Source: Candidatus Methanoplasma cognatum
Lineage (GTDB): Archaea > Thermoplasmatota > Thermoplasmata > Methanomassiliicoccales > Methanomethylophilaceae
Assembly (NCBI GenBank): GCA_009777615.1
Contig: WRLM01000001.1
Location: forward strand, 310,001-374,000
Direction: 5' to 3'
DNA length: 64,000 bases
Below the pieces are notes generated by a model. That model searched no databases and was not told the DNA's origin. It was given only the letters and a program-made list of their open reading frames with translations. Position 1 is the first letter of the stretch; each line of letters begins with the position of its first letter. Shown here in pieces: positions 13,403 through 32,837 of this stretch. The translations under genes were made by a program, and so were the position numbers.

Positions 13403-14605
13403 ATGGCAAGAGATTTTACTGAGAAAGACTGGATTATCGAAACTATGGCTAGATTATTGGATGTTAAACCACAAATATATAAAAAAGCAGAAAGCGTAAA
13501 AAGTGGTCTCACTAACTTCCTAAAAAATCATAATATAGAGGTGTACGCACAGGGGTCTTATGAAATCGGTACGATGGTAAAACCATGCATCAAAGATAAA
13601 GACGGAGATTTTGATATCGATTTGGTCGCACTATTCCCGGATAAAAAGTCAGCTGTTTCTGCCAAGGATATAAAAGAAAAATTAGGAAAACATCTAAAAA
13701 ATCAAAACTACGCAAATAACCTTGGCAAAGAGGGAAAAAGATGTTGGACCTTGCACTTTGAGTTACCAATCAACAATATAGAAAGGGCAGTTTTCCACAT
13801 TGATGTGTTACCCTGTGTCAATGATCCATCGCCGCACTTTGAATTGGGTGAAACCGCCGTCGCAATAACAAACAAAGAGGGGAATAATAGTTATTCTTGG
13901 AGGTCCAGCAATCCAAGGGGATATGCAAAATGGTTTACGGGCATCAACTCGAAATACAAAGAATATCGCGAAAAAGACAGAGTAAGAATTCAAAAAGAAA
14001 ACCCTGATTTGTTCAAATCTCATTCGGATGTCAGCGACGCTTATACGAGAACACCGATGCAAATGGTAATACAGATACTGAAGCGCCATAGAGATATGAT
14101 GTTTATCGGCACAGAAGGCGAAGATAATAAGCCGAGGTCGATATTGATCACAACGCTTGTTGCAAAGATTATCGAAGAAAACAACAAAGTTGTCAACAGC
14201 ACGTATGACTTGCTAAATTTCATACTTGATGGTTTGGTCTTCTATTCGGGTCTTGATTCCAAAAACTATGATCAGGATTCAGCAGAGTACAGGGGAAAAA
14301 AATTGATTCAGAAGAAAAATGGGAAATGGTGTATAAAAAATCCCGCCGATCCCCTTGAGAATCTGGCAGAAAAGTGGAACGAACATCCTCAAATGGCAAC
14401 CGAATTCTTCAGATGGGTCAAAAAGGCAAGAAGTGATCTTATCGATATACTAGACGGCACACCCGAAGAAATCAATAAGGAAATCGAAAAATCAATGGGA
14501 AAGGATGTTGCAGACGAACTCTTTAACAAGATGAATTCAGGTAAATCTCCGACTCCAAAACCACTTACCGTCAATGACAAGACCCCGAAACCATATTTGG
14601 AGTGA
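13403..14605 (+). CDS. CBASS cyclic-oligonucleotide synthase (CD-NTase)
   Basis: A 400-residue nucleotidyltransferase of the cGAS/DncV-like family. The catalytic signature is clear: AQGSYEIGTMVKP at residues 49-61 (Gly51-Ser52) and GDFDIDLVALF at residues 68-78, with metal-binding aspartates 71 and 73. In CBASS such enzymes sense phage infection and make a cyclic di- or trinucleotide that activates an effector. The next two genes are an E2-like protein and an HNH-SAVED effector, which fixes the assignment as a short-form type II CBASS. The nucleotide made cannot be told from sequence. Confidence 0.88.
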   Translation: MARDFTEKDWIIETMARLLDVKPQIYKKAESVKSGLTNFLKNHNIEVYAQGSYEIGTMVKPCIKDKDGDFDIDLVALFPDKKSAVSAKDIKEKLGKHLKNQNYANNLGKEGKRCWTLHFELPINNIERAVFHIDVLPCVNDPSPHFELGETAVAITNKEGNNSYSWRSSNPRGYAKWFTGINSKYKEYREKDRVRIQKENPDLFKSHSDVSDAYTRTPMQMVIQILKRHRDMMFIGTEGEDNKPRSILITTLVAKIIEENNKVVNSTYDLLNFILDGLVFYSGLDSKNYDQDSAEYRGKKLIQKKNGKWCIKNPADPLENLAEKWNEHPQMATEFFRWVKKARSDLIDILDGTPEEINKEIEKSMGKDVADELFNKMNSGKSPTPKPLTVNDKTPKPYLE

Positions 14606-14607
14606 GA

Positions 14608-15348
14608 ATGAACTCAAAAGAATTCATTGATGAGGCAAAGATGCTTTTCAGGGATTTTGAGACAATCACCGAGAGCACGAAAAAGATATCTACCAACAGA
14701 TATGAAAGAGATGAGTATGGTATAGTAGGCACATACCATCTCAACCGCGATTGTGAAAAAAAATATCAAGAAGACTTCAGGCTAGAAGTAAGAGTTAGTA
14801 ATAATAAAAAGAATCCTGTTCCAAGGGTTTGGATTTCAGAGGAATCAATGTCAGATGGGTTTTGTCATGTGTATGCCAAAGGGTACATATGTATGGGTAC
14901 AAAACTTGAGATAATGGATGCATGGGGAGATGAACGAAGCGCAGAATCTTTTTTCGAAAATGTTGTTGATGTGTATCTTATCAATTTGATTTCATTTAGA
15001 GATACAGGAGTTACAATCACAGGGGAGAGGTCGCATGGAGAAGAGGGCATATTCGATTACTATCGGAGATATTTTCCTAACATAAGTAATGACCAAAATC
15101 TCAAGAAAGTTCTTTTATATATAAACAAAATAGCAAAAAAAGATAAGATCGTTAATGTAAAGAAACATAGAATCTGCCCATGCGGTAGCAAAAAAGAAAT
15201 CAAAGATTGTTGCAAAGATGGAATCAATGAAGTCGTGAAAGTTCTAAGTTCTGATTCAGACAGGTGCGGGGCATTCAAATCGGATATCGAAGCGTTAAAG
15301 GGAGCAAAGAGTGGAAGGAAGCGTGAAAATCGTGGTGCAAGAACGTAA
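14608..15348 (+). CDS. CBASS E2-like protein with C-terminal SEC-C zinc motif
   Basis: A 246-residue protein from the ATG at 14608; a GTG at 14602 overlapping the CD-NTase stop is the alternative. The N-terminal ~160 residues look like a bacterial ubiquitin-conjugating E2 fold: a conserved His (GFCHVYAKG, His87) precedes the candidate catalytic cysteine in YICMG (Cys95). Residues 190-202 are a SEC-C zinc motif (CPCGSKKEIKDCC). In short-form type II CBASS an E2-only protein conditions or conjugates the CD-NTase. The SEC-C tail is not something I know from these E2 proteins and may be a partner-binding addition. The E2 call rests on motif and position. Confidence 0.65.
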   Translation: MNSKEFIDEAKMLFRDFETITESTKKISTNRYERDEYGIVGTYHLNRDCEKKYQEDFRLEVRVSNNKKNPVPRVWISEESMSDGFCHVYAKGYICMGTKLEIMDAWGDERSAESFFENVVDVYLINLISFRDTGVTITGERSHGEEGIFDYYRRYFPNISNDQNLKKVLLYINKIAKKDKIVNVKKHRICPCGSKKEIKDCCKDGINEVVKVLSSDSDRCGAFKSDIEALKGAKSGRKRENRGART

Positions 15349-16477
15349 GACTATTCCGGACGCAGTAAAAATACACATCTTTGTATGTTCTGGCGGAAGA
15401 TGTACAATTTGCAATATCGACACTTTAAAAGATTTCCGAACAGGAAAAACAAAGAAAATCGGAGAGTTTGCACATATGGTAGCATTTAGTGATTTAGGTG
15501 AACGTGCAAATCCTCTTTTAACCGAGGAGGAGAGAAATTCAACCGATAATCTGATGCTCCTTTGTCCAAACTGCCATAGTACGATCGATAAAAAAATAGA
15601 AGAAGAAGAGTACAGTGTCGACTGGTTGAAAAGGAAAAAAAGAATGCATGAAGAAAAAGTTGAAAAAATGCTTGATTCTTTAGATACAGCATATTGTCGT
15701 TTTATTAAATATTTAAGCCCTATTGGAGAAAGAGGCTTCACTTTATCGGACAGTGTAATAATGCGCGTTGCGTACGAAAACCAGCTGTATTCAAGACATA
15801 ATATAATAAATCTGTGCGAAAATGGTAATGAAGAAAGCATCGAAGAGTCTCTGAAAAAGATTGATCGCGATTTCAAAAATCGCGTTCAGACACTTATTGA
15901 TAATAATGATTCAGAGCCCATTTGTTTGTTTGCAGTCGCCCCTCAGCCTTTATTGATTTATCTGGGCAGTAAATTCCATGACCTTATGGAAGTAAAGATA
16001 TTTACTCGGTTACACAACGCCCAATGGGTTCTCGATGATAAAGAAAAGGAACCAATCTCATTTTCAGTTGACTTTCCTGAACAAATAAATCGCGATAACG
16101 AAGTCCTATTGATTTTAGAGTGTACCAATGTAGTGACAAAAGAAAGAGTGGAAAACACATTTGGAAAAAATGTGGATATATGGAGGATATCTTCAGAATG
16201 TAAAGGCATTGACAGGATTGGGAATCAGAACGAAATCTCAAAATTTGAGTCATTGTGCGCCGAAGTCATCGACATGATAGGTAATGCATATGGGCGCGAC
16301 AAAGAGATCAACCTGCTACCTGTAGTGTGTAACTCCCTTGCAATAGCATTTGGAAGAGCAATCATGCCTAAAGCACAAACCATAATCCGAATATATGACT
16401 CAACTATTGTTTCAGGTGAGATGACCGATGCATACTCATTCACACTCTACAATGGAAGATGGAAGGTCGATTCGTAG
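15311..16477 (+). CDS. cap5: CBASS effector Cap5: HNH nuclease fused to SAVED sensor
   Basis: A 388-residue effector that starts at a GTG inside the end of the E2 gene (38-base overlap). Residues ~15-110 are an HNH nuclease with zinc cysteines (CTIC, CPNC), the histidine in GEFAHMVAFS, the asparagine in STDNLMLLC, and CHSTIDKK. Residues ~190-388 are a SAVED domain, which binds cyclic oligonucleotides; the end LPVVCNSLAIAFGRAIMPKA is typical. Ligand binding makes Cap5 assemble and degrade double-stranded DNA. The stop is TAG, noteworthy because pyrrolysine is common in this lineage; read-through would add only nine residues. Confidence 0.85.
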   Translation: MEGSVKIVVQERKTIPDAVKIHIFVCSGGRCTICNIDTLKDFRTGKTKKIGEFAHMVAFSDLGERANPLLTEEERNSTDNLMLLCPNCHSTIDKKIEEEEYSVDWLKRKKRMHEEKVEKMLDSLDTAYCRFIKYLSPIGERGFTLSDSVIMRVAYENQLYSRHNIINLCENGNEESIEESLKKIDRDFKNRVQTLIDNNDSEPICLFAVAPQPLLIYLGSKFHDLMEVKIFTRLHNAQWVLDDKEKEPISFSVDFPEQINRDNEVLLILECTNVVTKERVENTFGKNVDIWRISSECKGIDRIGNQNEISKFESLCAEVIDMIGNAYGRDKEINLLPVVCNSLAIAFGRAIMPKAQTIIRIYDSTIVSGEMTDAYSFTLYNGRWKVDS

Positions 16478-19502: not shown

Positions 19503-19579
19503 GGGCTGGTAGATCAGCTCGGCAGATCGCCTGCTTTGCAAGCAGGAAGCCGGGGGTTCAAATCCCCCCCAGTCCACCA
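19503..19579 (+). tRNA. tRNA-Ala (anticodon TGC), CCA encoded
   Basis: A complete cloverleaf. The acceptor arm GGGCTGG pairs with CCAGTCC and contains the G3:U70 wobble that identifies alanine tRNA. The anticodon arm CCTGC-TTTGCAA-GCAGG gives anticodon TGC at 19537-19539, the T arm is CGGGG-GTTCAAAT-CCCC-like, the discriminator is A, and CCA is encoded (19577-19579). The anticodon-loop region TTTG followed by CAAGCAGGAAG is matched by the guide-like element on the opposite strand at 19596-19679. Confidence 0.95.
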
Positions 19580-19582
19580 CCG

Positions 19583-19600
19583 CTCTATAAAAAAATAGAG
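19583..19600 (-). terminator. T-tract terminator of the minus-strand crRNA-like transcript
   Basis: Read on the minus strand this is CTCTAT, seven Ts, then ATAGAG: a short stem whose loop is a T-run. Archaeal RNA polymerase stops at such T-tracts. It lies 45-60 bases past the guide-like repeat and just 3' of the tRNA gene, so a minus-strand RNA from the CARF gene region would end here before running antisense into the tRNA. Confidence 0.45.
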
Positions 19601-19679
19601 GTTTATAAGAGTCTGAAGCTTGAACACGCGCGACTTCCTGCTTGATCTACTAGGAGTAGAGATTTGATAAGTTCTGTTC
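19596..19679 (-). ncRNA. Solitary crRNA-like element: degenerate Cas12a repeat plus spacer-like segment matching tRNA-Ala
   Basis: On the minus strand, 19664-19645 matches the last 20 bases of the array repeat at 17 of 20 positions. It keeps the stem TCTAC/GTAGA and the GTAGAT end; all three changes are in the loop (GTTT becomes CCTA). The 5' half of the repeat (19679-19665) is much degraded. The following bases, CAAGCAGGAAGTCGCGCGT (19644-19626), match the tRNA-Ala gene at 19539-19557 in 16 of 19 positions, the first 11 without a break. In the tRNA gene the match is preceded by TTTG, a Cas12a-type PAM. The element begins about 44 bases past the CARF gene stop and ends at a T-tract. The features point to a functional guide that lets Cas12a bind, perhaps without cutting, at the tRNA gene. 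Function is inference. Confidence 0.7.
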
Positions 19680-19722: not shown

Positions 19723-20559
19723 TCATTCCAGTTCACAATAGAATGTATCCAGCACGATCCTCCCTTCATCGGTTAAGAAATATCTTTTCCTGAATTCATC
19801 TCGATATACCCATCCGCTGGAGACCCATTTGTCAATGAAATCTCTGTAGTAATACACAGAGTCTGATCTGGTGGTTTTGATCTTACCGTGGTGGTCGAAG
19901 ATGATCTCTCCCTCCCCTCTGCGCCAAAGGTTGGATTCTTTAAGAGCCCTTATGACATCGGGGCCCTTTGTCGAGAGTTTCTTTTTATTCATTTCGTTCA
20001 ATATCCTGAGTCCTAGAACAACATTCCTGTCTGGGATGGGCATTGAGTATTTAGGGAGGCATTTTGGATTCCGAACAGATTCTGTGAGGCCGACTGGCTT
20101 ATCATTTTCATCGTAGAATGTTCCTTTGATGTCCTTTACCCAATAGTCAATGGTGCTGACGGAGAAAGGTATCGCCCCAGGCATCATCATAGATGCGATG
20201 GCCGCCGCTGCAGCATATTCCGATGTGCCGGCAGATATGTTGACGAATATATCAGAAGGTTCATTCTTCCGATTTTCTTCTTCGATGATACATAGAATCG
20301 TTCTCAGCATGGTTGTGAAATCGTTCACATTTTCCATGTGTCTGATTATCTCTATTGGAGCGGTCGCATTTTCACACATCAGCTCACAGACGCGTTCACA
20401 GAAGTCGATGTATACCTTGCCGTTATCGCTCGATGGGTCTCTTACATAATGTATGAGGTGGACTTTCGTGGCATCGTAGAACTTTATAGGATCCGTAATC
20501 TTCACAGTCTCGAAAGTCACACATGAGACCACTATTCTTTCTCTCCGTCCCGAATTCAT
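19723..20559 (-). CDS. CARF-domain winged-helix transcriptional regulator (HFX_2341/Csa3-like)
   Basis: A 278-residue protein. The N-terminal ~170 residues look like a CARF/Rossmann sensor of the HFX_2341 (DUF6293) type: an initial strand RIVVSCVTFE, KVHLIHYV, and the ligand-loop motif DIFVNISAGTSEYAAAAAIAS near residues 105-125. The C-terminal ~90 residues look like a winged helix (VLGLRILNEMNKKKLSTKG, ending FRKRYFLTDEGRIVLDTF). CARF domains bind cyclic oligoadenylates or related messengers and often regulate cas genes. It is divergent from cas12a with a 120-base shared promoter region and carries the crRNA-like element just past its stop. Regulation of cas12a is a reasonable inference. Confidence 0.7.
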   Translation of the reverse strand: MNSGRRERIVVSCVTFETVKITDPIKFYDATKVHLIHYVRDPSSDNGKVYIDFCERVCELMCENATAPIEIIRHMENVNDFTTMLRTILCIIEEENRKNEPSDIFVNISAGTSEYAAAAAIASMMMPGAIPFSVSTIDYWVKDIKGTFYDENDKPVGLTESVRNPKCLPKYSMPIPDRNVVLGLRILNEMNKKKLSTKGPDVIRALKESNLWRRGEGEIIFDHHGKIKTTRSDSVYYYRDFIDKWVSSGWVYRDEFRKRYFLTDEGRIVLDTFYCELE

Positions 20560-20679: not shown

Positions 20680-23600
20680 ATGGATAGCTATGAGCAGTTT
20701 ACCAAGCTGTACCCCATACAGAAAACGATCAGGTTCGAGCTGAAGCCGCAGGGAAGAACGAAGGAACACTTTGACAACTCCAATTTCCTCGAAAAGGACA
20801 GGGAAAGAGATGATAATTATAAGATTCTTAAGGAAGTAATTGATGACTATCATAGAGAGTTCATCGATGAATGTCTCTCCAACATCCAACTGAATTGGGA
20901 CGATCTCAAAAAATTTTCGGAGGAGTATCGTAGAAGTAAAGAGAAAAAGAACAATAGAGATTCGGAGTCAGAACAGAAACGTATGAGTACAACATCAGAA
21001 ACCCGGGCCATAAATAAGAAAAACCTAGAGGCTGAACAAAAACGTATGAGAGGAGAGATAGTATCGGCGTTTAAGAAAGATGACCGGTTCAAACATCTTT
21101 TTAGCGAAAAACTGTTCTCCATACTACTCAAAAATCAGATCTACGAGAAAGGCACCCTTGAAGAAATAGAAGCATTTGATTGTTTCAACAAGTTCTCAGG
21201 TTACTTCAAGAGTTTCCATGAAAACAGAAAAAACATGTATTCTGACGAAGACAAAGAAACAGCGATTTCTTACCGCATTATTAATGAGAATTTTCCAAAG
21301 CTTTTGGACAACTTTGAAAAATATCAGTATGTGTGCAGAGAATATCCGGAACAAATTCGGGAGGCGGAATCTACGCTGGCAGAGGCAGGATGCTATATCA
21401 AGATGGATGAGATATTTTCCATTGATAATTTCAATAATGTTATGATGCAGGGTGGGAAGGAAAGCGGGATAAGCAGATACAATCTGGCCATTGGCGGCAT
21501 CGTACAAGGTACTGGCGAAAAGCCGAAGGGACTGAATGAGTTTTTGAATTTAGCTTATCAAAACGAACCGAATGGCAGGAAAAAGATTCGTATGGAGCCG
21601 CTTTACAAACAGATACTGAGCAAAGAAGAATCTTTCTCCTACAGATTAGAGGCCTTCACTGACGACTCCCAATTGTTGTCGGCGATTCGAAGCTTCTTTG
21701 ACATCGTTGAAAAGGATAAAAATGGCAACATATTTGACAGGGCAGTGAATCTTATGTCATCATTTTCAAACTATGACACCTCAAAAATCTACATCAGGAA
21801 AGCATATCTGAATCAAGTATCTAAGGAAATATTTGGTTACAGGGGGAAATCAGATTCTAAACCCGCAAAGACTGCAGATGAATCTTTGAATAAATCTGGT
21901 GGCTGGGAAAAATTGGGACAAATGCTTAGAGATTACAAAGCAGATTCAATTGGTGACAGAAACCTTGAGAAGACATGTAAGAAGGTCGATAAATGGCTCG
22001 ACTCAGACGAGTTCACACTGTCGGATATATTGGGGGCAATTTCTTTGGCAGGTTCAAATGAGACATTCGAGGCGTATGTTTCAGAGATTTGCGTAGCCAG
22101 AAGGAATATTGACAAGGAAAAAGAGAAAGAAAAGAACATTAATGTGGAGAAAATATCAGGCGATACTGAGTCAATCCAAATAATAAAAGCATTACTAGAC
22201 TCTGTACAGGAGTTTTTCCATCTGCTCAGCCCTTTTCAACTACATCCGAACACTCCACACGATTGGACGTTCTATGCAGAGTTCAATGATATATATGACA
22301 AACTGTCTGCAATAACTCCATTGTATAATCAAGCAAGGAATCATCTTACAAAGAAAAATCTTGACACTAGTAAAATAAAACTGAACTTCAATAACCCGAC
22401 TCTGGCCAATGGCTGGGACGTAAACAAAGAATACGAAAACACTGCGGTAATCCTCATACGCGATGGAAAATACTACTTAGGCATAATGAATCCAAAGAAC
22501 AAAAGGAAAATAAAGTTTGATGAAGGATCAGGTGCAGGGCCATTCTATCAAAAGATGGTGTACAAATTACTCCCCGGGCCATATAGAATGTTGCCGAAGG
22601 TCTTCTTTGCCAAAAAGAACATCGACTACTATAACCCATCACAAGAGATAAGGGAAGGATACAAAGCTGGAAAGCATAAAAAGGGCAAAGAATTTGATAA
22701 AGGATTCTGTCACAAGCTGATTGATTTTTTCAAAGAATCGATACAGAAGAACGAGAATTGGAAAGTGTTCGATTTTAAATTCTCTCCTACAGAATCATAT
22801 GACGACATCAGTGAGTTCTATCAAGAGGTGGAAAAGCAGGGATACAGGATGTACTTTGTGAACATACCCTCAGATACGATTGACAGATACGTGGAAGGAG
22901 GCGATATGTTCCTCTTCCAGATATATAACAAAGATTTTGCGAAGGGTGCTAAAGGCAATAAGGACATGCATACATTATACTGGAATGCAGTTTTCTCAGA
23001 AGAAAACCTTCAGAAGGGGGTAATGAAACTTAGCGGAGAGGCTGAACTTTTCTATAGAAAAAAGAGTGATATCAAAGACCCCCCACACAGAGAGGGAGAG
23101 ATATTGGTTAACCGCACATACATCGACAGAACGCACGTATCGGGCGTTATGGGGGAACAAAATACGGTGAAAGAAAGCAGGATACCTGTACCGGATGAGA
23201 TACACAAAAATCTCTTTGATTATTATAATCATGGCAGAGAACTCACCAAAGAAGAGAAAGAATATTGTGACAAAGTGGGGTCATTCAAAGCGTATTATGG
23301 CATCGTCAAAGACCGCAGGTATTTGGAAAATAAAATGTACTTCCATGTTCCCCTTACGCTGAACTTCAAAGCTATCGGAGAGAAGAGAATAAACAAGATG
23401 GCCATAGAAAAATTCCTCACAGACGAAAATGCATGCATAATAGGTATAGACCGCGGAGAAAGGAACCTCCTATACTATTCCATCATAGATCGTAATGGTA
23501 AAATCATCGATCAGAAAAGTCTCAATGTAATAGATGGATTCGATTACCATGAGAAGCTGAGTCAAAGACAAACAGAAAGGGAAGTAGCGAGACAGAGCTG

Positions 23601-24585
23601 GAATTCAATAGGAAAAATAAAGGATTTAAAGGAAGGATATCTCGCGAAAGCTGTTCATGAAATATCTAAAATGGCAATAAAATACAATGCCATAGTTGTA
23701 CTGGAAGATCTCCATTTCGGATTCAAAAAGGGACGTCTCAAAGTGGAGAAGCAGATATATCAGAAGTTTGAGGAAATGCTGATAAACAAGCTGAATTACC
23801 TTGTATTCAAGGATGTATCTGACAGTAGCGACGCTGGAGGAGTCCTCAATGCATATCAGTTAACCGCTCCGCTGGAAAGCTTCAGTAAACTCGGGAAGCA
23901 ATCTGGAATCCTGTTCTATGTTCCCGCAGCGTTCACTTCGGTTATTGATCCAACAACGGGGTTTGTGGACTTGTTCAACTCATCCAGCATAACAAGCACT
24001 CAAAAAAAGAAAGAGTTCTTACAGCGGTTCGAATCAATTGTGTATTCTGCCAGGGATGGAGGAATATTCGCTTTCACATTTGACTATCGGAACTTCTCAA
24101 AAATAGCAACTGATCACAGGAACATGTGGACAGTGTATACTCATGGCGAACGCATCAGATATGTCAGAGATGAAAAATGTTACAAAACAACTGACCCTAC
24201 GAAGAGGATTAAGGAAGCTCTATCGGGTATCGAGTATGATGATGGGTCGGATATACGCGATAAGATCACCCAAAGTGGGGATAATAATTTGATAAACACA
24301 GTATACCACTCGTTTATGGATACCATAAAGATGAGAAACAAAGATGGGAGAATAGACTACATAATCTCCCCAGTAAAGAACCGCAATGGAGAGTTCTTCA
24401 GGTCGGATTACAAACACAGAGATTTTCCAGTGGATGCGGATGCTAACGGCGCTTATCACATCGCACTCAAAGGTGAGCTACTTATGCGCATGATTGGCAA
24501 GACGTATGATTCTAACTCGGACAAGATGCCGAAGTTGGAACACAAAGACTGGTTCGAGTTCATGCAGACAAGGGGGGATCAATGA
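20680..24585 (+). CDS. cas12a: Type V-A CRISPR effector nuclease Cas12a (Cpf1)
   Basis: A 1301-residue RNA-guided DNA nuclease that also processes its own pre-crRNA. The start MDSYEQFTKLYPIQKTIRFE is the family N-terminus. RuvC-I is IIGIDRGERNLLYYS (Asp924), RuvC-II VVLEDLHFGFKKGR (Glu1009), RuvC-III DADANGAYHIA (Asp1254 by D-x-N alignment), and the Nuc-lobe arginine is Arg1219 in MRNKDG. All catalytic residues are present, so it should be active. From memory it is very similar to the Candidatus Methanoplasma termitum protein but has extra segments: a doubled EQKRM stretch near residues 85-120, a GKSDSKPAKTADES insert near 390-405, and an insert around HVSGVMGEQNTVKES near 820. Its TGA overlaps the cas4 start. 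Confidence 0.98.
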   Translation: MDSYEQFTKLYPIQKTIRFELKPQGRTKEHFDNSNFLEKDRERDDNYKILKEVIDDYHREFIDECLSNIQLNWDDLKKFSEEYRRSKEKKNNRDSESEQKRMSTTSETRAINKKNLEAEQKRMRGEIVSAFKKDDRFKHLFSEKLFSILLKNQIYEKGTLEEIEAFDCFNKFSGYFKSFHENRKNMYSDEDKETAISYRIINENFPKLLDNFEKYQYVCREYPEQIREAESTLAEAGCYIKMDEIFSIDNFNNVMMQGGKESGISRYNLAIGGIVQGTGEKPKGLNEFLNLAYQNEPNGRKKIRMEPLYKQILSKEESFSYRLEAFTDDSQLLSAIRSFFDIVEKDKNGNIFDRAVNLMSSFSNYDTSKIYIRKAYLNQVSKEIFGYRGKSDSKPAKTADESLNKSGGWEKLGQMLRDYKADSIGDRNLEKTCKKVDKWLDSDEFTLSDILGAISLAGSNETFEAYVSEICVARRNIDKEKEKEKNINVEKISGDTESIQIIKALLDSVQEFFHLLSPFQLHPNTPHDWTFYAEFNDIYDKLSAITPLYNQARNHLTKKNLDTSKIKLNFNNPTLANGWDVNKEYENTAVILIRDGKYYLGIMNPKNKRKIKFDEGSGAGPFYQKMVYKLLPGPYRMLPKVFFAKKNIDYYNPSQEIREGYKAGKHKKGKEFDKGFCHKLIDFFKESIQKNENWKVFDFKFSPTESYDDISEFYQEVEKQGYRMYFVNIPSDTIDRYVEGGDMFLFQIYNKDFAKGAKGNKDMHTLYWNAVFSEENLQKGVMKLSGEAELFYRKKSDIKDPPHREGEILVNRTYIDRTHVSGVMGEQNTVKESRIPVPDEIHKNLFDYYNHGRELTKEEKEYCDKVGSFKAYYGIVKDRRYLENKMYFHVPLTLNFKAIGEKRINKMAIEKFLTDENACIIGIDRGERNLLYYSIIDRNGKIIDQKSLNVIDGFDYHEKLSQRQTEREVARQSWNSIGKIKDLKEGYLAKAVHEISKMAIKYNAIVVLEDLHFGFKKGRLKVEKQIYQKFEEMLINKLNYLVFKDVSDSSDAGGVLNAYQLTAPLESFSKLGKQSGILFYVPAAFTSVIDPTTGFVDLFNSSSITSTQKKKEFLQRFESIVYSARDGGIFAFTFDYRNFSKIATDHRNMWTVYTHGERIRYVRDEKCYKTTDPTKRIKEALSGIEYDDGSDIRDKITQSGDNNLINTVYHSFMDTIKMRNKDGRIDYIISPVKNRNGEFFRSDYKHRDFPVDADANGAYHIALKGELLMRMIGKTYDSNSDKMPKLEHKDWFEFMQTRGDQ

Positions 24586-25145
24586 CAGAAAACACAATCC
24601 TGCTATCAAACATAAATGACTTTATTTTCTGTCCCGTCTCAATATATTTCCATAATCTTATGGAAGACGCGGACAGAATGATGTCTCAGTCTACATGTCA
24701 AATCAATGGAACGCATGCGCATAAAACAATAGAGGATGGGCGATACACATCAAGAAAGGATGTATTGCAGGGGATTGAGGTCTATTGTGAAAAGTATGAT
24801 CTGATGGGGAAGATAGATCTGTTCGACATAAAGAAGGGATTGCTCACCGAGAGGAAGAAAAAGATATCCCAGCTGTATGACGGGCAGGTATTCCAGATAT
24901 ATGGCCAATATTTTGCGCTGAAAGAGATGGGATATAAGGTCAATAAGATCAGAGTGCATAGTATGGACGACAACAAGAATTATGATATATCTATCCCGGA
25001 GTATGATGTGGATATGGTGGACAAGTTCGAGGAAACGATTCGTGACATGCACGCCTTCAACCCGGGTGATTACATCCAGACAAATCCCTGCAAATGTTCT
25101 AATTGTATATATGAACCAATGTGCGGGAGCTCATGTCTGGAGTAA
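24582..25145 (+). CDS. cas4: Cas4 exonuclease, adaptation protein
   Basis: A 187-residue Cas4 that trims prespacers and helps select PAM-adjacent spacers. The iron-sulfur cysteines are in place: FCPVS near residue 17 and a C-terminal CKCSNCIYEPMC. The nuclease core shows GTHAHKTIE, GKIDLFDIKKG and ERKKK, then QIYGQYFALKEMGYK. The ATG at 24582 overlaps the cas12a stop by 4 bases and has a strong upstream AGGGGGG. Confidence 0.95.
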   Translation: MTENTILLSNINDFIFCPVSIYFHNLMEDADRMMSQSTCQINGTHAHKTIEDGRYTSRKDVLQGIEVYCEKYDLMGKIDLFDIKKGLLTERKKKISQLYDGQVFQIYGQYFALKEMGYKVNKIRVHSMDDNKNYDISIPEYDVDMVDKFEETIRDMHAFNPGDYIQTNPCKCSNCIYEPMCGSSCLE

Positions 25146-25148
25146 AGT

Positions 25149-26120
25149 ATGATGTCGGTTGATGCCTTCAAGAAAAAACAGATAGTGTTCGTTTTCACAA
25201 GGGAGGGGGACAAAATCTCTTTCAGTAATGATAATCTTATTGTTAAGAATGGAAATGAGGTGCGTCTGCAATCCACATGCTATAGGATATTTGCTCTTTT
25301 CATCGTGGGGGACGTAACAATAACATCAGGTATAATCCAGAGATCAAGGAAGTTCGGTTTTCCGATCTTCCTGATGACAACAATGCTCCGAACTTATGAT
25401 GTCATTGGTCACAAGACAGAAGGCAATTTCATCCTGAGGAAGATTCAATACGACTATGATAGTTTAGACATCGCAAAACACATTGTGGAAAACAAGATCC
25501 GCAATCAAATCGATACGCTGAGTCTGCAGAGATGGAAAGACAACAAGATGCGGGCAGACATATCTTCGCTGGAACGCTATGCGGGATCCATATGGGGTCT
25601 CAATGAGGACTTCAGAGAGATCATGGGCGTTGAGGGATCCGCTTCAAGAATCTATTTCCGAAATAATTTCAATATGGATGTGTGGACAGGAAGGAAACCA
25701 AAGATAAAGCCTGATTTCATTAACAGTACTTTGGATATAGGGTACACTATTCTGTTCAACTTCATTGATGCAATGCTGTGTTTGTATGGGTTCGATACTT
25801 ACAAAGGAGTATACCACAGAGAGTTCTACATGAGGAAATCACTGGTATGTGATATGGTGGAACCGTTCCGCCCTCTCATAGATTGGCAAGTAAGGAAGGC
25901 AGTAAATCTGGGACAGTGCAAGCCTGAGGACTTCAATGTTTCTAATGGAAGATTTTTGCTGGATATATCAAAGAGCAAAGACTATGTGGAATTTCTAACC
26001 AAACCCTTATTGGCATCGAAAGAAGAAGTATTTGTCTACTTTCGAGACTTTTATCGGGCAATCATGAAACACAGGTCGATTTCCGATTTTCCGGTATTTA
26101 GGATACGTGAGGACCAATGA
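25149..26120 (+). CDS. cas1: Cas1 integrase
   Basis: A 323-residue spacer integrase. The metal-binding residues can be placed: the Glu in GVEGSASRIYF, the His in GVYHREFYMRKSLVCD, and the acidic residue in DMVEPFRPLID. It starts with two ATG codons (25149 and 25152) three bases after the cas4 stop and overlaps cas2 by ATGA. Nothing suggests inactivation. Confidence 0.96.
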   Translation: MMSVDAFKKKQIVFVFTREGDKISFSNDNLIVKNGNEVRLQSTCYRIFALFIVGDVTITSGIIQRSRKFGFPIFLMTTMLRTYDVIGHKTEGNFILRKIQYDYDSLDIAKHIVENKIRNQIDTLSLQRWKDNKMRADISSLERYAGSIWGLNEDFREIMGVEGSASRIYFRNNFNMDVWTGRKPKIKPDFINSTLDIGYTILFNFIDAMLCLYGFDTYKGVYHREFYMRKSLVCDMVEPFRPLIDWQVRKAVNLGQCKPEDFNVSNGRFLLDISKSKDYVEFLTKPLLASKEEVFVYFRDFYRAIMKHRSISDFPVFRIREDQ

Positions 26121-26389
26121 TACTGATAAGCTATGATATCCAAGATGACAAATTGCGCACAAAATTCTCAAAATACATAAAAAGGTTTGGGCACAGACTG
26201 CAATATTCTGTCTATGAGATAGATAATTCAGAGAGAATACTTGACAATATAATTGCAGATATAAACAACAGGTTCATGGATGAATTCTCAGAGGCAGATT
26301 CAGTACTTATAATGAAACTCTCAAAGACATGTGACATCATAAGGCTTGGATATGCCAAACATGAAGAGTCTGAGATTGTAATGGTCTGA
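26117..26389 (+). CDS. cas2: Cas2
   Basis: The 90-residue structural partner of Cas1. It opens MILISYDIQDDKLRTKFSKY, the ferredoxin-like first strand with the conserved YDI-D, and continues RFGHRLQYSVYEIDNSE. It is the last gene of cas12a-cas4-cas1-cas2 and is followed at once by the array leader. Confidence 0.96.
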   Translation: MILISYDIQDDKLRTKFSKYIKRFGHRLQYSVYEIDNSERILDNIIADINNRFMDEFSEADSVLIMKLSKTCDIIRLGYAKHEESEIVMV

Positions 26390-26523: not shown

Positions 26524-29500
26524 GTCAAAACTCATTTGAATCTCTACTGTTTGTAGATTAATATCGGAGAGAGAGAGCTTAGTGAGTCAAAACTCATTTG
26601 AATCTCTACTGTTTGTAGATACCCCACAGGCCGCAACTTGGAGGTTGTCAAAACTCATTTGAATCTCTACTGTTTGTAGATGTGGAAAGCCCGCTTGAGC
26701 CGGCGTAAGTCAAAACTCATTTGAATCTCTACTGTTTGTAGATTGATCGCTCCTGCCGGCATGGCGACCGTCAAAACTCATTTGAATCTCTACTGTTTGT
26801 AGATTACTCTGTGTAGATAAAACAAAGATTGTCAAAACTCATTTGAATCTCTACTGTTTGTAGATGGATGTCGCCGTTGTCACCGGTGAGCGTCAAAACT
26901 CATTTGAATCTCTACTGTTTGTAGATAGCTCTGTATCTGCGGCTTTCGCACAGTCAAAACTCATTTGAATCTCTACTGTTTGTAGATCTGTTCCTCTGGA
27001 CAAACTCAACGGGGTCAAAACTCATTTGAATCTCTACTGTTTGTAGATCGCGAAGCGTTGAAAGCTCTGTCTGATGGTCAAAACTCATTTGAATCTCTAC
27101 TGTTTGTAGATTTGTTGAGGATGGCATTACTGCCATTGTCAAAACTCATTTGAATCTCTACTGTTTGTAGATGAGAATGGAGAGCTCCCCAGGTCCATTT
27201 GTCAAAACTCATTTGAATCTCTACTGTTTGTAGATACCAATCTGATACTCTCCGCACGATGGTCAAAACTCATTTGAATCTCTACTGTTTGTAGATTGGA
27301 GCTCTTTGCGGGTATCGGCGCTGTCAAAACTCATTTGAATCTCTACTGTTTGTAGATCTGCACCGCCGCATCGGTGTTGCTCTGTCAAAACTCATTTGAA
27401 TCTCTACTGTTTGTAGATATATCAGTGTGAATGCAGCGCCGATCGGTCAAAACTCATTTGAATCTCTACTGTTTGTAGATATGATGCTGTCGGCCTGTTT
27501 TTGTGCGTCAAAACTCATTTGAATCTCTACTGTTTGTAGATCCCAAGGCATTATATATTTCCCTCCTCTGTCAAAACTCATTTGAATCTCTACTGTTTGT
27601 AGATCGGCGCAGGATGGGCGGCGGGGTGGAGGTCAAAACTCATTTGAATCTCTACTGTTTGTAGATATTCTTTCTATTTCGTCATGGAGAATTGTCAAAA
27701 CTCATTTGAATCTCTACTGTTTGTAGATAGAATCTCCTAAATAACTCACTAAGGTCAAAACTCATTTGAATCTCTACTGTTTGTAGATGATCCAACCATA
27801 ATAAACGCCGATGGGTCAAAACTCATTTGAATCTCTACTGTTTGTAGATCACGGCGGTGGACGTATGAGCAGAGAGTCAAAACTCATTTGAATCTCTACT
27901 GTTTGTAGATGTCATGCGTTCCTCTCATCATCATAAAGTCAAAACTCATTTGAATCTCTACTGTTTGTAGATGTGCACGATAGGCAATCCGTGAAAGGTC
28001 AAAACTCATTTGAATCTCTACTGTTTGTAGATGGATAAAATTCAGGGCGGCCAGTCAGAGTCAAAACTCATTTGAATCTCTACTGTTTGTAGATAAAAAG
28101 GCCTAACATACTAACTGTAGTGTCAAAACTCATTTGAATCTCTACTGTTTGTAGATACATGGCCTGCACGTCCTCTATTGGAAGTCAAAACTCATTTGAA
28201 TCTCTACTGTTTGTAGATATCAACGGCGCGGCCTTCTACTCCCTCGTCAAAACTCATTTGAATCTCTACTGTTTGTAGATATGAGCCAATGCAAACCCCT
28301 CTTACAATGTCAAAACTCATTTGAATCTCTACTGTTTGTAGATCGCTGCCTGTGCACGAGCCTGCAAGGGTCAAAACTCATTTGAATCTCTACTGTTTGT
28401 AGATGCTTCACCCCCTCCTCCTACCTGTCGTCAAAACTCATTTGAATCTCTACTGTTTGTAGATCCTTCACACTCAGGACACTCGTCAGGGTCAAAACTC
28501 ATTTGAATCTCTACTGTTTGTAGATCCGCAGTACAGCAACGTTTGGAGGGTCGTCAAAACTCATTTGAATCTCTACTGTTTGTAGATCCAAGACAATAGC
28601 ATGTCATCTCCGCCGTCAAAACTCATTTGAATCTCTACTGTTTGTAGATGAGGGTGTGAAGGCAGAATCGAAGAGTCAAAACTCATTTGAATCTCTACTG
28701 TTTGTAGATTGCGAAAATACAGCCGTTAGTAAATGGTCAAAACTCATTTGAATCTCTACTGTTTGTAGATTGCGAAAAACCGCCCAGAAAAAAGACCGTC
28801 AAAACTCATTTGAATCTCTACTGTTTGTAGATTGGTGTTCCGCTCTGCGATAGAGTATGTCAAAACTCATTTGAATCTCTACTGTTTGTAGATGGGAACC
28901 AGGAAAAGATCATCAGGGGGTCAAAACTCATTTGAATCTCTACTGTTTGTAGATGATTATCAACTCTATCATCGCGGCGGGGTCAAAACTCATTTGAATC
29001 TCTACTGTTTGTAGATTTCCCTCCGCCCTTGGAGTTTTGAAAGTCAAAACTCATTTGAATCTCTACTGTTTGTAGATTGGTACTGCGCGATCAATATCCC
29101 GCGGTCAAAACTCATTTGAATCTCTACTGTTTGTAGATGATACATCTACACAATATCGGCACCGTCAAAACTCATTTGAATCTCTACTGTTTGTAGATCG
29201 GGCCACTATGAGGGCGGAGGGGTATGTCAAAACTCATTTGAATCTCTACTGTTTGTAGATTAGCTGTCGCCAAGTTGCCGCGAGACAGTCAAAACTCATT
29301 TGAATCTCTACTGTTTGTAGATTTTTCATAGGGTATTTTGCCATCACAGTCAAAACTCATTTGAATCTCTACTGTTTGTAGATACATCCTGGCCCTCCGC
29401 ATTATATGCCGTCAAAACTCATTTGAATCTCTACTGTTTGTAGATTCGAGCAATTGCCACAGCCTTTTTCGTCAAAACTCATTTGAATCTCTACTGTTTG

Positions 29501-30924
29501 TAGATGGCCGTATTCATAGCGAAATATACTTTGTCAAAACTCATTTGAATCTCTACTGTTTGTAGATTGAATTATTCCCTCGGAGAAACCGTGTCAAAAC
29601 TCATTTGAATCTCTACTGTTTGTAGATGTAAGAGAAAAGGTAAGAAGCGCGGGAGTCAAAACTCATTTGAATCTCTACTGTTTGTAGATGATTGTTGCCG
29701 CCATTTTGACAGCAGCGTCAAAACTCATTTGAATCTCTACTGTTTGTAGATGAAAAGAACCCCATCAGCCTTTGCCTGTCAAAACTCATTTGAATCTCTA
29801 CTGTTTGTAGATCCGGTGATAGCCCAAGCCAGCGTATCGTCAAAACTCATTTGAATCTCTACTGTTTGTAGATCGAACGAAGTCACACCGCGACCTCGCG
29901 TCAAAACTCATTTGAATCTCTACTGTTTGTAGATGGTACCGTCCCACAGCCGCGCCCTCAGTCAAAACTCATTTGAATCTCTACTGTTTGTAGATGGATC
30001 ATGTGATCACAACGGATCTATGTCAAAACTCATTTGAATCTCTACTGTTTGTAGATATATGATCAGGTGTCAATTCTTTCACGGTCAAAACTCATTTGAA
30101 TCTCTACTGTTTGTAGATGAAGGCACCACGACAGCGACCTGATGGTCAAAACTCATTTGAATCTCTACTGTTTGTAGATAGGAGGACTATGATACGCTTA
30201 TGTCTGGTCAAAACTCATTTGAATCTCTACTGTTTGTAGATTGCTACGGCGTACATTTTTTGGAAGTGTCAAAACTCATTTGAATCTCTACTGTTTGTAG
30301 ATTGGGTGAAGCTGATCGCTGCATTCATCGTCAAAACTCATTTGAATCTCTACTGTTTGTAGATCTTTCTCCCCGTCAACTCCTCTGTCCGTCAAAACTC
30401 ATTTGAATCTCTACTGTTTGTAGATTTCATGGCTGATCGCTATGTCTGTTAGGGTCAAAACTCATTTGAATCTCTACTGTTTGTAGATTGTGATGTGGTG
30501 TCACTGTCCCTTCATCGTCAAAACTCATTTGAATCTCTACTGTTTGTAGATCAAGGAGCCTCGGCCACTCCATATAGTCAAAACTCATTTGAATCTCTAC
30601 TGTTTGTAGATTAATGCGTCATTCGACCCGACCAGAGCTTCATAGTCAAAACTCATTTGAATCTCTACTGTTTGTAGATAATCACGACTGTGCGTGCTAC
30701 CATCCGTCAAAGCTCATTTGAATCTCTACTGTTTGTAGATTTGTCGTCAACCAGATCAACGACCAAAGTCAAAACTCATTTGAATCTCTACTGTTTGTAG
30801 ATATGAGGTAATGAGGTCTGCCCCAGGGTCAAAACTCATTTGAATCTCTACTGTTTGTAGATGTTGGGTGACGAACCATCAGGGTTATGGTCAAAACTCA
30901 TTTGAATCTCTACTGTTTGTAGAT
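26524..30924 (+). CRISPR. Type V-A CRISPR array: 72 repeats of 35 bp, 71 spacers
   Basis: Repeats of 35 bp start at 26524, 26586, 26647 and so on to 30890, at 60-68 bp intervals. The repeat begins GTCAAAACTCATTTG and ends CTCTACTGTTTGTAGAT, whose TCTAC/GTAGA stem is the Cas12a crRNA handle. The handle is on the 3' side, so the + strand is the crRNA strand. All copies I read are identical except the one at 30706 (A to G at position 7). Spacers are mostly 25-28 bp; the one before 30645 is 33 bp. The near-perfect repeats and intact cas genes suggest an active locus. I found no spacer I could match to this window by eye. Confidence 0.99.
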
Positions 30925-31012
30925 ACAACACTCTCAAACTCACAATGAAGCTATCATATCCATTCCACTCTTTATAGTACGTAGTCACTTATGGCAGGAT
31001 ACATAACCGAGC

Positions 31013-31023
31013 GTCAAAACTCA
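31013..31023 (+). repeat. Eroded repeat fragment beyond the array end
   Basis: GTCAAAACTCA is identical to the first 11 bases of the array repeat, then diverges. Its start is 123 bp after the start of the last repeat, exactly two average repeat-spacer units, so it looks like the remnant of a once longer array. No repeat is recognisable at the one-unit position (about 30951). Confidence 0.6.
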
Positions 31024-31076
31024 CTCTGGCAGATATGGGCAAGATAACAAATTATTTTGATATGTGTTTGCCACAC

Positions 31077-32837
31077 TTATTCAACAACAGCCTTAATCCT
31101 TCTCACGCCTGCAGCAGAACTCTCTTCCTTAGTGATCTTGAAACAGCCGATTTCCCCGGTGCTGCGCACATGGGGTCCGCCGCAGAGCTCAATGGAAACA
31201 TCACCTATTGAGTATACCTTCACGAGTTCTCCGTACTTCTCATGGAATACGCCTTCGGCGTTCCTTTCTTTGGCCTCCTCATAGGGGATCTCCTCACATA
31301 CCACTGGGATATCGGCTTTTATGACCTGGTTGATGTAGTCTTCAATAGCCTTAAGCTCGTCAGGCTCAACTTTCCTGTCAAGATTGAAATCGAACCTTAG
31401 TCTCTCGGCTGTGATGTTCGATCCTTTCTGCTTGATGTTCGGATCGACGAACTTCTTCAGCGCCGCGTTCAGGAGATGTGTGGCTGTGTGTAATCTGGTG
31501 GTTTGATTGCTCGCATCCGCCAAGCCGCCTTTGAATATCTGGTCGGAACCCGCGCGGGATTTTTCCTGATGTTCTTTGAAACGGTTGTTGAAATCATCGA
31601 CGTTCACGGTGTAGCCTTTCTCCGCCGCAAGCTCCTGCGTAAGCTCGATTGGGAACCCGAACGTGTCGTACAGCCTGAACACCGCTTCGCCTTCAAGCTC
31701 TTTTGATCCCCCACCCTCAGAGATCATCTCGTCGAACCTCCTCAGCCCCTTCCTCAGGGTCTTGTGGAATTTTTCCTCCTCGGCGGTTATCTGAGCGCAG
31801 ATAGTGTCCTTATTCTTCTCTAGCTCCGGATACGCCGCCGAGTATTCAGAGATGATGACCTCGGAGACGCTCCGCATGTTCACCCCCTCGATCCCTATGT
31901 TCGACATGTATCTGCTCGCTCTTCTGATCAATCTCCTGAGGATGTATCCCTGTCCCATCTTCGATGGGACCACTCCGTCCCCCAGGAGGAACGTAGACGC
32001 CCTCAGGTGGTCGGCTATTATCCTGAACGACCGCATATCGTCCTTGTACTTCTTTCCGGATAATTCCTCAAGCTTTCCTATTATTCCGGTGAACAGCGAC
32101 GTGTCGTACACCGTTTCCAGACCGTTCACCACACAAAGCACTCTCTCCAGCCCCATGCCGGTGTCCACATTCTGCTGCTTCAGCGGTGTGAACTTTCCGT
32201 CCTTATCCTTATTGTACTGCATGAAGACGTTGTTCCATATCTCCGTGTACTTGCCGCATCTGCACGCCGGCCCGCAGTCAGGGCCGCATTTCTTTTGGCC
32301 GTTGTCGAAGAATATCTCCGTGTCCGGTCCGCAGGGTCCGGTCTGCCCCGCGGGACCCCACCAGTTGTCCTTCCTTCCGTAGAAGAATATCCGGTCATCC
32401 GTGAACCCGTGGCTTCTCCATTGCTCCGCGGTCTCATCGTCCTTGGGAATGTCTTCCTCCCCTTCGAACGCCGTGACCGCAAGCTGATCCCTTCCTATTT
32501 TCAAAACATCCTTCAGAAGGTCATAGCTGAATTCTATCGATTCTTTTTTGAAGTAGTCCCCCAGGGACCAGTTCCCGAGCATTTCGAAGAACGTAAGATG
32601 CGAAGCGTCGCCCACCTCCTCGATGTCCCCTGTCCTTATGCATTTCTGGAAGTTCACCAGTCTCTTTCCTCCGGGGTGTTTCTCCCCCAGAAGGTACGGG
32701 ACCAGAGGATGCATGCCCGCCGTTGTGAAAAGCACGGTGGGATCGTTCTCCGGTATCAGCGAAGCTGACCTGATGTAAGTGTGCCCTCTTTCGACAAAGA
32801 AATTCACATATGCGTCCCTGAGTTCCTGAGCGTCCAT
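31077..32837 (-). CDS. alaS: Alanyl-tRNA synthetase, short form without C-terminal domain
   Basis: A 586-residue class II synthetase that charges tRNA-Ala. Residues ~1-240 are the catalytic core (LFTTAGMHPLVPYLLG, HLTFFEMLGNWSLGDYF, DTGMGLERV). Residues ~240-440 are the tRNA-recognition region. The rest is the editing domain with all four zinc ligands (HTATHLLNAAL and CGGPHVRSTGEIG). The protein stops there: the DHHA1/C-Ala domain of ~870-residue AlaRS is missing. The N-terminus and the cysteine-rich CGPDCGPACRCGKYTEIWN insert resemble short bacterial candidate-phylum AlaRS more than archaeal ones, suggesting transfer. The gene converges on the CRISPR array. Confidence 0.88.
   Translation of the reverse strand: MDAQELRDAYVNFFVERGHTYIRSASLIPENDPTVLFTTAGMHPLVPYLLGEKHPGGKRLVNFQKCIRTGDIEEVGDASHLTFFEMLGNWSLGDYFKKESIEFSYDLLKDVLKIGRDQLAVTAFEGEEDIPKDDETAEQWRSHGFTDDRIFFYGRKDNWWGPAGQTGPCGPDTEIFFDNGQKKCGPDCGPACRCGKYTEIWNNVFMQYNKDKDGKFTPLKQQNVDTGMGLERVLCVVNGLETVYDTSLFTGIIGKLEELSGKKYKDDMRSFRIIADHLRASTFLLGDGVVPSKMGQGYILRRLIRRASRYMSNIGIEGVNMRSVSEVIISEYSAAYPELEKNKDTICAQITAEEEKFHKTLRKGLRRFDEMISEGGGSKELEGEAVFRLYDTFGFPIELTQELAAEKGYTVNVDDFNNRFKEHQEKSRAGSDQIFKGGLADASNQTTRLHTATHLLNAALKKFVDPNIKQKGSNITAERLRFDFNLDRKVEPDELKAIEDYINQVIKADIPVVCEEIPYEEAKERNAEGVFHEKYGELVKVYSIGDVSIELCGGPHVRSTGEIGCFKITKEESSAAGVRRIKAVVE

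Follow-up and report, generated by a model that had tools for sequence, protein, structure and literature searches.

The stretch analysed here, referred to as the window, comprises 64,000 nucleotides of the archaeon Candidatus Methanoplasma cognatum (contig WRLM01000001.1, positions 310,001 to 374,000) and carries a Cas12a-encoding (type V-A) CRISPR locus, together with a solitary CRISPR RNA (crRNA)-like guide unit that resembles the adjacent tRNA-Ala gene. The Cas12a locus sits between the genes for tRNA-Ala and alanyl-tRNA synthetase (AlaRS), immediately 3' of the tRNA. From left to right, the tRNA-Ala(TGC) gene (19503–19579, plus strand; identified by ARAGORN, 67 bits in Rfam) is followed by the guide unit on the minus strand, an HFX_2341-family CARF-HTH regulator gene (19723–20559, minus strand; PF19810, E=3e-12), cas12a (20680–24585, plus strand; TIGR04330, 1188 bits) with all three RuvC acidic motifs, cas4, cas1 and cas2 (24582–26389, plus strand; library matches), a CRISPR array of 72 repeats found by repeat search (26524–30950, plus strand) with spacers of mostly 25–28 nt, the AlaRS gene (31077–32837, minus strand; library matches and synteny) and the gene for NifB. 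The window genome (1.62 Mb, seven contigs, 99% complete) contains a single match to the tRNA-Ala(TGC) pattern.

The guide unit begins with a solitary degenerate Cas12a repeat, recognised by sequence and by a genome-wide handle search, that has a footprint of 35 nt on the minus strand (19645–19679). Its handle, AATCTCTACTCCTAGTAGAT, at 19664–19645, is identical in 17 of 20 positions to the array handle AATCTCTACTGTTTGTAGAT and retains both stem arms, whereas the 5' part of the repeat is degenerate. The handle of the predicted guide RNA, read from 19664 downward, opens with AAUCUCUACU and leads into the 20-nt guide CAAGCAGGAAGTCGCGCGTG (19625–19644, minus strand, read from 19644 to 19625). Comparison with tRNA-Ala aligns this guide with a 20-nt protospacer-like stretch on the plus strand, CAAGCAGGAAGCCGGGGGTT (19539–19558), which spans tRNA positions C36 to T55 and is preceded by a TTTG protospacer-adjacent motif (PAM) within the anticodon loop (19535–19538). 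The first 11 nt are equal, and mismatches occur at positions 12, 15, 17 and 20. The repeat with its intact stem, the 11-nt identity and the TTTG were all described in the initial annotation and are confirmed by the sequence, with the mismatch at position 20 added to the three listed there. A T-run on the minus strand, CTCTATTTTTTTATAGAG (approximately 19583–19600), is a candidate for the end of the transcript.

Besides the 72-repeat array, this is the sole solitary handle in the window genome, where one further match with three mismatches is present. None of the spacers of the array begins with CAAGCA. When TTTV plus 17 guide letters are considered, no other PAM-flanked site in the genome comes as close as tRNA-Ala, and only two sites have three or fewer mismatches, the second of which (TTTCCAAGGAGG...) is broken in the seed. 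Neither site lies upstream of cas12a, and autorepression of the cas12a promoter, as described for CreR, was rejected at this level of close matches. Single-strand folds of the 40-nt guides are uninformative, as an array guide misfolds too. The guide is located just 3' of the CARF-HTH gene and may lie within its 3' untranslated region (UTR), such that the guide and the regulator, which is upstream on the same strand, may be co-transcribed. We favour the interpretation that the element would be a guide unit dedicated to the Cas12a encoded next to it, which is nuclease-competent.

Among 102 genomes of the family, Cas12a is found in four, namely the window genome, G048, G009 and G076. Guide units beside tRNA-Ala are present in three Methanoplasma species, with one unit in the window, three in G048 and two in G045, giving six guides. 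In G048, a one-contig genome of the same genus, tRNA-Ala is followed by three opposite-strand units, the CARF-HTH gene and cas12a, with one unit starting a few bases from the CARF stop codon. The G045 genome, also of this genus and 60% complete, yielded no Cas12a; at a contig end, it carries tRNA-Ala along with two units whose repeats are undegenerated and whose spacers measure 24 and 25 nt. The 5' halves of the repeats are degenerate in the window and G048, and in all six units the handle stem is intact and runs directly into the guide, as in a type V-A crRNA. Because the same handle-CAA(G/A)CA arrangement recurs beside tRNA-Ala in G048 and G045, a chance match, which the initial annotation had judged very improbable, is excluded, and whole-genome pattern scans likewise rule out a chance or low-complexity match. 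Handle and tRNA-like guide also occur jointly, being found together in three species and absent from G009 and G076, whose Cas12a loci are not beside tRNA-Ala. A search by pattern through the 84,980 species genomes of genome_contigs returned no further handle-guide case beside tRNA-Ala, and a Cas12a-based scan of the same collection for related loci confirmed no relative.

All six guides begin with CAA(G/A)CA and thus at C36, the third anticodon base, whereas the TTTG PAM is made of T32, T33 and the anticodon bases T34 and G35. The three carriers and 80 of the 102 family genomes have TTTG, which conforms to the 5' TTTV PAM of Cas12a, in the anticodon loop; across the phylum, 40 of 390 genomes contain the target motif together with TTTG, and almost all of these belong to the family. 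The guides track tRNA-Ala through T55, that is over 20 nt, the length of a Cas12a guide; beyond this point the two diverge, even though the tRNA bases that follow are mostly invariant across the family. When compared with 80 tRNA-Ala genes (21 distinct 20-mers), the guides mismatch the consensus in 5 of 84 cells at the 14 conserved positions within 1–20, but in 19 of 36 cells at the variable positions (p=3e-8 by cells, p=0.001 with columns permuted), such that 19 of the 24 mismatches fall where the tRNA itself varies. At positions 21–24, mismatches are present in 11 of 24 cells, as compared to 5 of 84 at the conserved positions within the first 20 (p=2e-5). All p-values are approximate, given that there are six guides only and that the three from G048 are possibly duplicates of one another. 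This pattern would be expected if 20 nt were maintained to recognise tRNA-Ala as a class, rather than for neutral spacer decay.

Within these 20 nt, the guides do not prefer the tRNA-Ala of their own genome over the alleles of relatives (one genome per species), differing from the former at 3–6 positions. In addition to the window guide, with its mismatches at 12, 15, 17 and 20, the three guides of G048 (048a–c) mismatch their own tRNA at 7-10-15-17, 7-10-17 and 7-10-11-12-15-17, and those of G045 (045a and 045b) at 10-11-12-15-17 and 4-10-12-17. Thus, a seed match to the own target, as in CreR and CreA, does not extend across the species, since the G048 guides break at position 7 and 045b breaks at position 4. 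The own-allele mismatches total 26 over the six guides, and randomly drawn non-carrier alleles reach a total of 26 or fewer in 94% of draws. The window guide is identical to the G055 allele over 19 of 19 nt, and 045b and 048a are one mismatch from the G015 and G480 alleles, respectively. The initial annotation had proposed that Cas12a is directed to its own tRNA-Ala gene. Here, a crRNA-like unit with a PAM is indeed directed at tRNA-Ala, but the own gene is not supported as the conserved target, as seen from the mismatches at 7 and 10 in G048; the proposed roles in addiction, in surveillance or in shielding the own gene find no comparative support, with own alleles being no closer than others, although they may apply in the window species, where the seed is intact. 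Faster change of tRNA-Ala in carriers was rejected, because other tRNAs of the family diverge as much, even though the window and G048 alleles are private and their D-loops deviate. Separately, we note that the 3' CCA of tRNA-Ala is encoded in 3/3 guide carriers and 0/4 examined non-carriers of the genus, numbers too few to weigh.

The cas locus interrupts what is an ancestral neighbourhood, since tRNA-Ala is directly followed by a convergent AlaRS gene in G055, G014 and at least 6 of 30 tRNA-Ala loci viewed. AlaRS is located elsewhere in G048, and the flanking aro genes are only about 70–85% identical between the species that share the unit position. In G033, of the same genus, the interval 3' of tRNA-Ala that holds Cas12a in the window contains a cluster of nitrogenase-like and ABC-transport genes (L082, 3411–12742). 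In each of the four Cas12a loci known in the family (the window, L014, L015 and L016, including G048, G009 and G076), cas12a and the CARF-HTH gene are divergently oriented, which suggests of the latter that it may be a dedicated regulator of archaeal type V-A systems; the Haloferax HFX_2341 protein, when over-expressed, represses cas genes (PMC11434293). Another CARF-HTH homologue (48% identical) is located with an unassigned open reading frame (ORF) beside AlaRS in G038 (L160, 1–3000), where Cas12a has no match. The cas12a gene of G009 (L015, 5955–9639) appears as two pieces, has an in-frame TAG and may thus be a pseudogene. To the left of tRNA-Ala, the window contains minus-strand aro genes (2–11 kb), a GNAT gene and a CBASS-like operon (SMODS nucleotidyltransferase, a 248-aa ORF and HNH-SAVED) beside a UvrD-like helicase (13403–16477), such that defence genes cluster around tRNA-Ala. 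A truncated repeat, GTCAAAACTCACTCTGG, is found past the array end (31012–31028), adjoining AlaRS.

We tentatively suggest, as the reading we prefer, that the guide is kept to recognise non-self alleles of tRNA-Ala(UGC) in related archaea during DNA exchange, with the own tRNA-Ala being spared by its 3–6 mismatches. The guide would be transcribed, possibly as part of the CARF-HTH 3' UTR, and loaded into the neighbouring Cas12a, which would attack the tRNA-Ala region of a relative as DNA is exchanged. The cut may then lead to repair or replacement by the locus-carrying allele, or may prevent overwriting by an empty allele, so that the locus would be retained or spread. With the locus adjoining its target, cutting would benefit the allele that carries cas12a; and because the anticodon loop contains both the PAM and the position of the first guide base, the target would hardly be able to escape through their loss. 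Given the RuvC motifs, Cas12a should cut what it binds fully. Since AsCas12a needs approximately 17 matched PAM-proximal nucleotides for stable binding (PMC6050341), the 11-nt match to the own tRNA would be short-lived if the window Cas12a behaves alike, and the 6-nt stretches of G048 would be still less likely to keep Cas12a on the own gene for long. In Haloferax, when CRISPR cuts the chromosome of a mating partner, recombination is biased in favour of the strain that bears the CRISPR system (PMC12814878). This bias and the binding requirement of AsCas12a lead us to favour recognition of relatives' tRNA-Ala, as do the syntenic recurrence of the units in three species, the end of the tRNA likeness at 20 nt, the clustering of mismatches at tRNA-variable positions, the lack of preference for the own allele, the near-exact non-self alleles, the family-restricted target motif, the intact RuvC motifs and the interrupted tRNA-Ala–AlaRS neighbourhood.

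Several observations weigh against this assignment. The own allele is not significantly farther from the guides than others (a total of 26 or more in 13% of draws, p=0.13), leaving active avoidance unproven. Half of the guides are more than one mismatch from every sampled allele (048b by two, 048c by three and 045a by two), the base combinations at variable positions resemble real alleles no more than independent draws do, and non-carriers of the same genus have CAAGCAAGAAGTCGCGAGTT, which is 3–5 mismatches from the guides. Around the cas locus, an attachment (att) duplication or other sign of mobility was not found: no transposase or integrase is seen, and direct repeats of at least 10 nt, whether target-site or att, are absent, the lone inverted 10-mer being the CRISPR repeat itself. 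Moreover, the evidence is limited to three species, with one of the loci at a contig end, the guide RNA is putative, and DNA exchange in Methanoplasma is a presumption of the model.

An alternative to which we give some chance, while leaning against it, is a CreR/CreA-like regulator, in which the guide makes Cas12a bind, rather than cut, the own tRNA-Ala gene to lower its transcription, sense free Cas12a or shield the gene. The perfect 11-nt seed and PAM facing a neighbouring gene that is also the nearest PAM-flanked site, the degenerate repeats characteristic of CreA and CreR, and the existence of a type V-A CreR (PMC12737573) are consistent with such a role. By contrast, the G045 repeats are undegenerated, the approximately 17 nt required by AsCas12a exceed the available match, and repression of a single-copy essential tRNA has no obvious benefit. 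With every G048 guide mismatched to its own tRNA at positions 7 and 10, a grip of this kind on the own tRNA is not supported as a general function. With respect to CreA, no small toxin gene was recognised near the matched site in a search that was not exhaustive, and the site is a canonical tRNA gene.

It is unlikely, although compatible with the mismatches to the own copy, that the locus is a natural RNA-guided cleave-and-rescue (homing) element, whose fixed guides would cut the essential tRNA-Ala of cells lacking the locus, with the linked own tRNA resistant, such that repair would copy in or protect the CRISPR-Cas12a locus. Also quite unlikely is that the units are relics, namely spacers at a cut-off array end that formerly targeted self or relatives and were disabled by decay of repeat and guide. 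Relics could explain the degenerate 5' repeat halves, the failure of any guide to match its own tRNA fully and the likeness of the G045 units, with their 24–25-nt spacers, to ordinary array units; the intact handle stems in six of six units, the conserved tRNA positions that are kept within 1–20 and not beyond, and the same placement in species with such diverged aro genes speak against them.

The 3' halves of tRNA genes are common att sites. Defence of such a site, with the guides targeting tRNA-Ala 3' halves on elements that integrate there, would fit the clustering of CBASS and Cas12a genes and for guides resembling relatives' alleles, which an attP would carry, but is improbable, since a half tRNA occurs in 0/30 motif-bearing viral contigs (the lone partial copy being cut by the contig end), guide-specific patterns have no match in the viral contig search, the family genomes hold no second partial tRNA-Ala copy save one odd match, and no integrase was recognised, by eye only, downstream of tRNA-Ala in the 30 loci viewed. 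A phage tRNA or attP as the target was likewise rejected, as only complete or edge-cut tRNAs were found and the guide-specific searches were empty.

A keyword search of the open-access literature did not find conserved off-array guides that point a nuclease-competent Cas12a at an essential tRNA gene. Were the guides to act on the alleles of relatives, the CRISPR-Cas locus would amount to a homing or allele-exclusion element and species barrier, whose PAM lies in an anticodon loop with hardly any room for mutation; were the own gene their target, CRISPR control would extend to tRNA. An editing study has already made use of the Cas12a proteins from Ca. Methanoplasma termitum and Ca. Methanomethylophilus alvus (PMC6892893), and the question is therefore directly testable with purified protein.

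The unit in the window belongs with neither CreR/CreA nor CRISPR-associated transposons (CASTs). As in CreR and CreA of types I and V-A, a solitary degenerate repeat and a short guide near cas genes have an imperfect PAM-flanked match to an adjacent site; however, the reported targets are cas or toxin promoters, rather than the body of a tRNA gene, and the likeness here extends over 20 nt and, in two of the three species, is not adjusted to the tRNA of the same genome. The delocalized homing crRNAs of type V-K and I-F3 CASTs (reviewed in PMC11656645) similarly comprise an off-array guide with a deviant repeat aimed at a tRNA or other conserved gene beside the element. Here, by contrast, the effector is a Cas12a with intact RuvC motifs rather than a nuclease-dead protein, and the only protein genes between tRNA-Ala and AlaRS, apart from the array, are those for CARF-HTH, Cas12a, Cas4, Cas1 and Cas2, with no Tn7-like transposition genes seen. 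Homing endonucleases and engineered cleave-and-rescue elements share a target in a conserved essential gene adjoining the nuclease locus and an own copy that differs from the recognised sequence, but here recognition would be RNA-guided, and cutting, rescue and spread are hypothetical. Like the type I-B system of Haloferax, which targets the chromosomes of relatives, the guides described here could act on relatives' chromosomal DNA; they differ in being fixed, conserved units of a type V-A system that are directed at one target gene.
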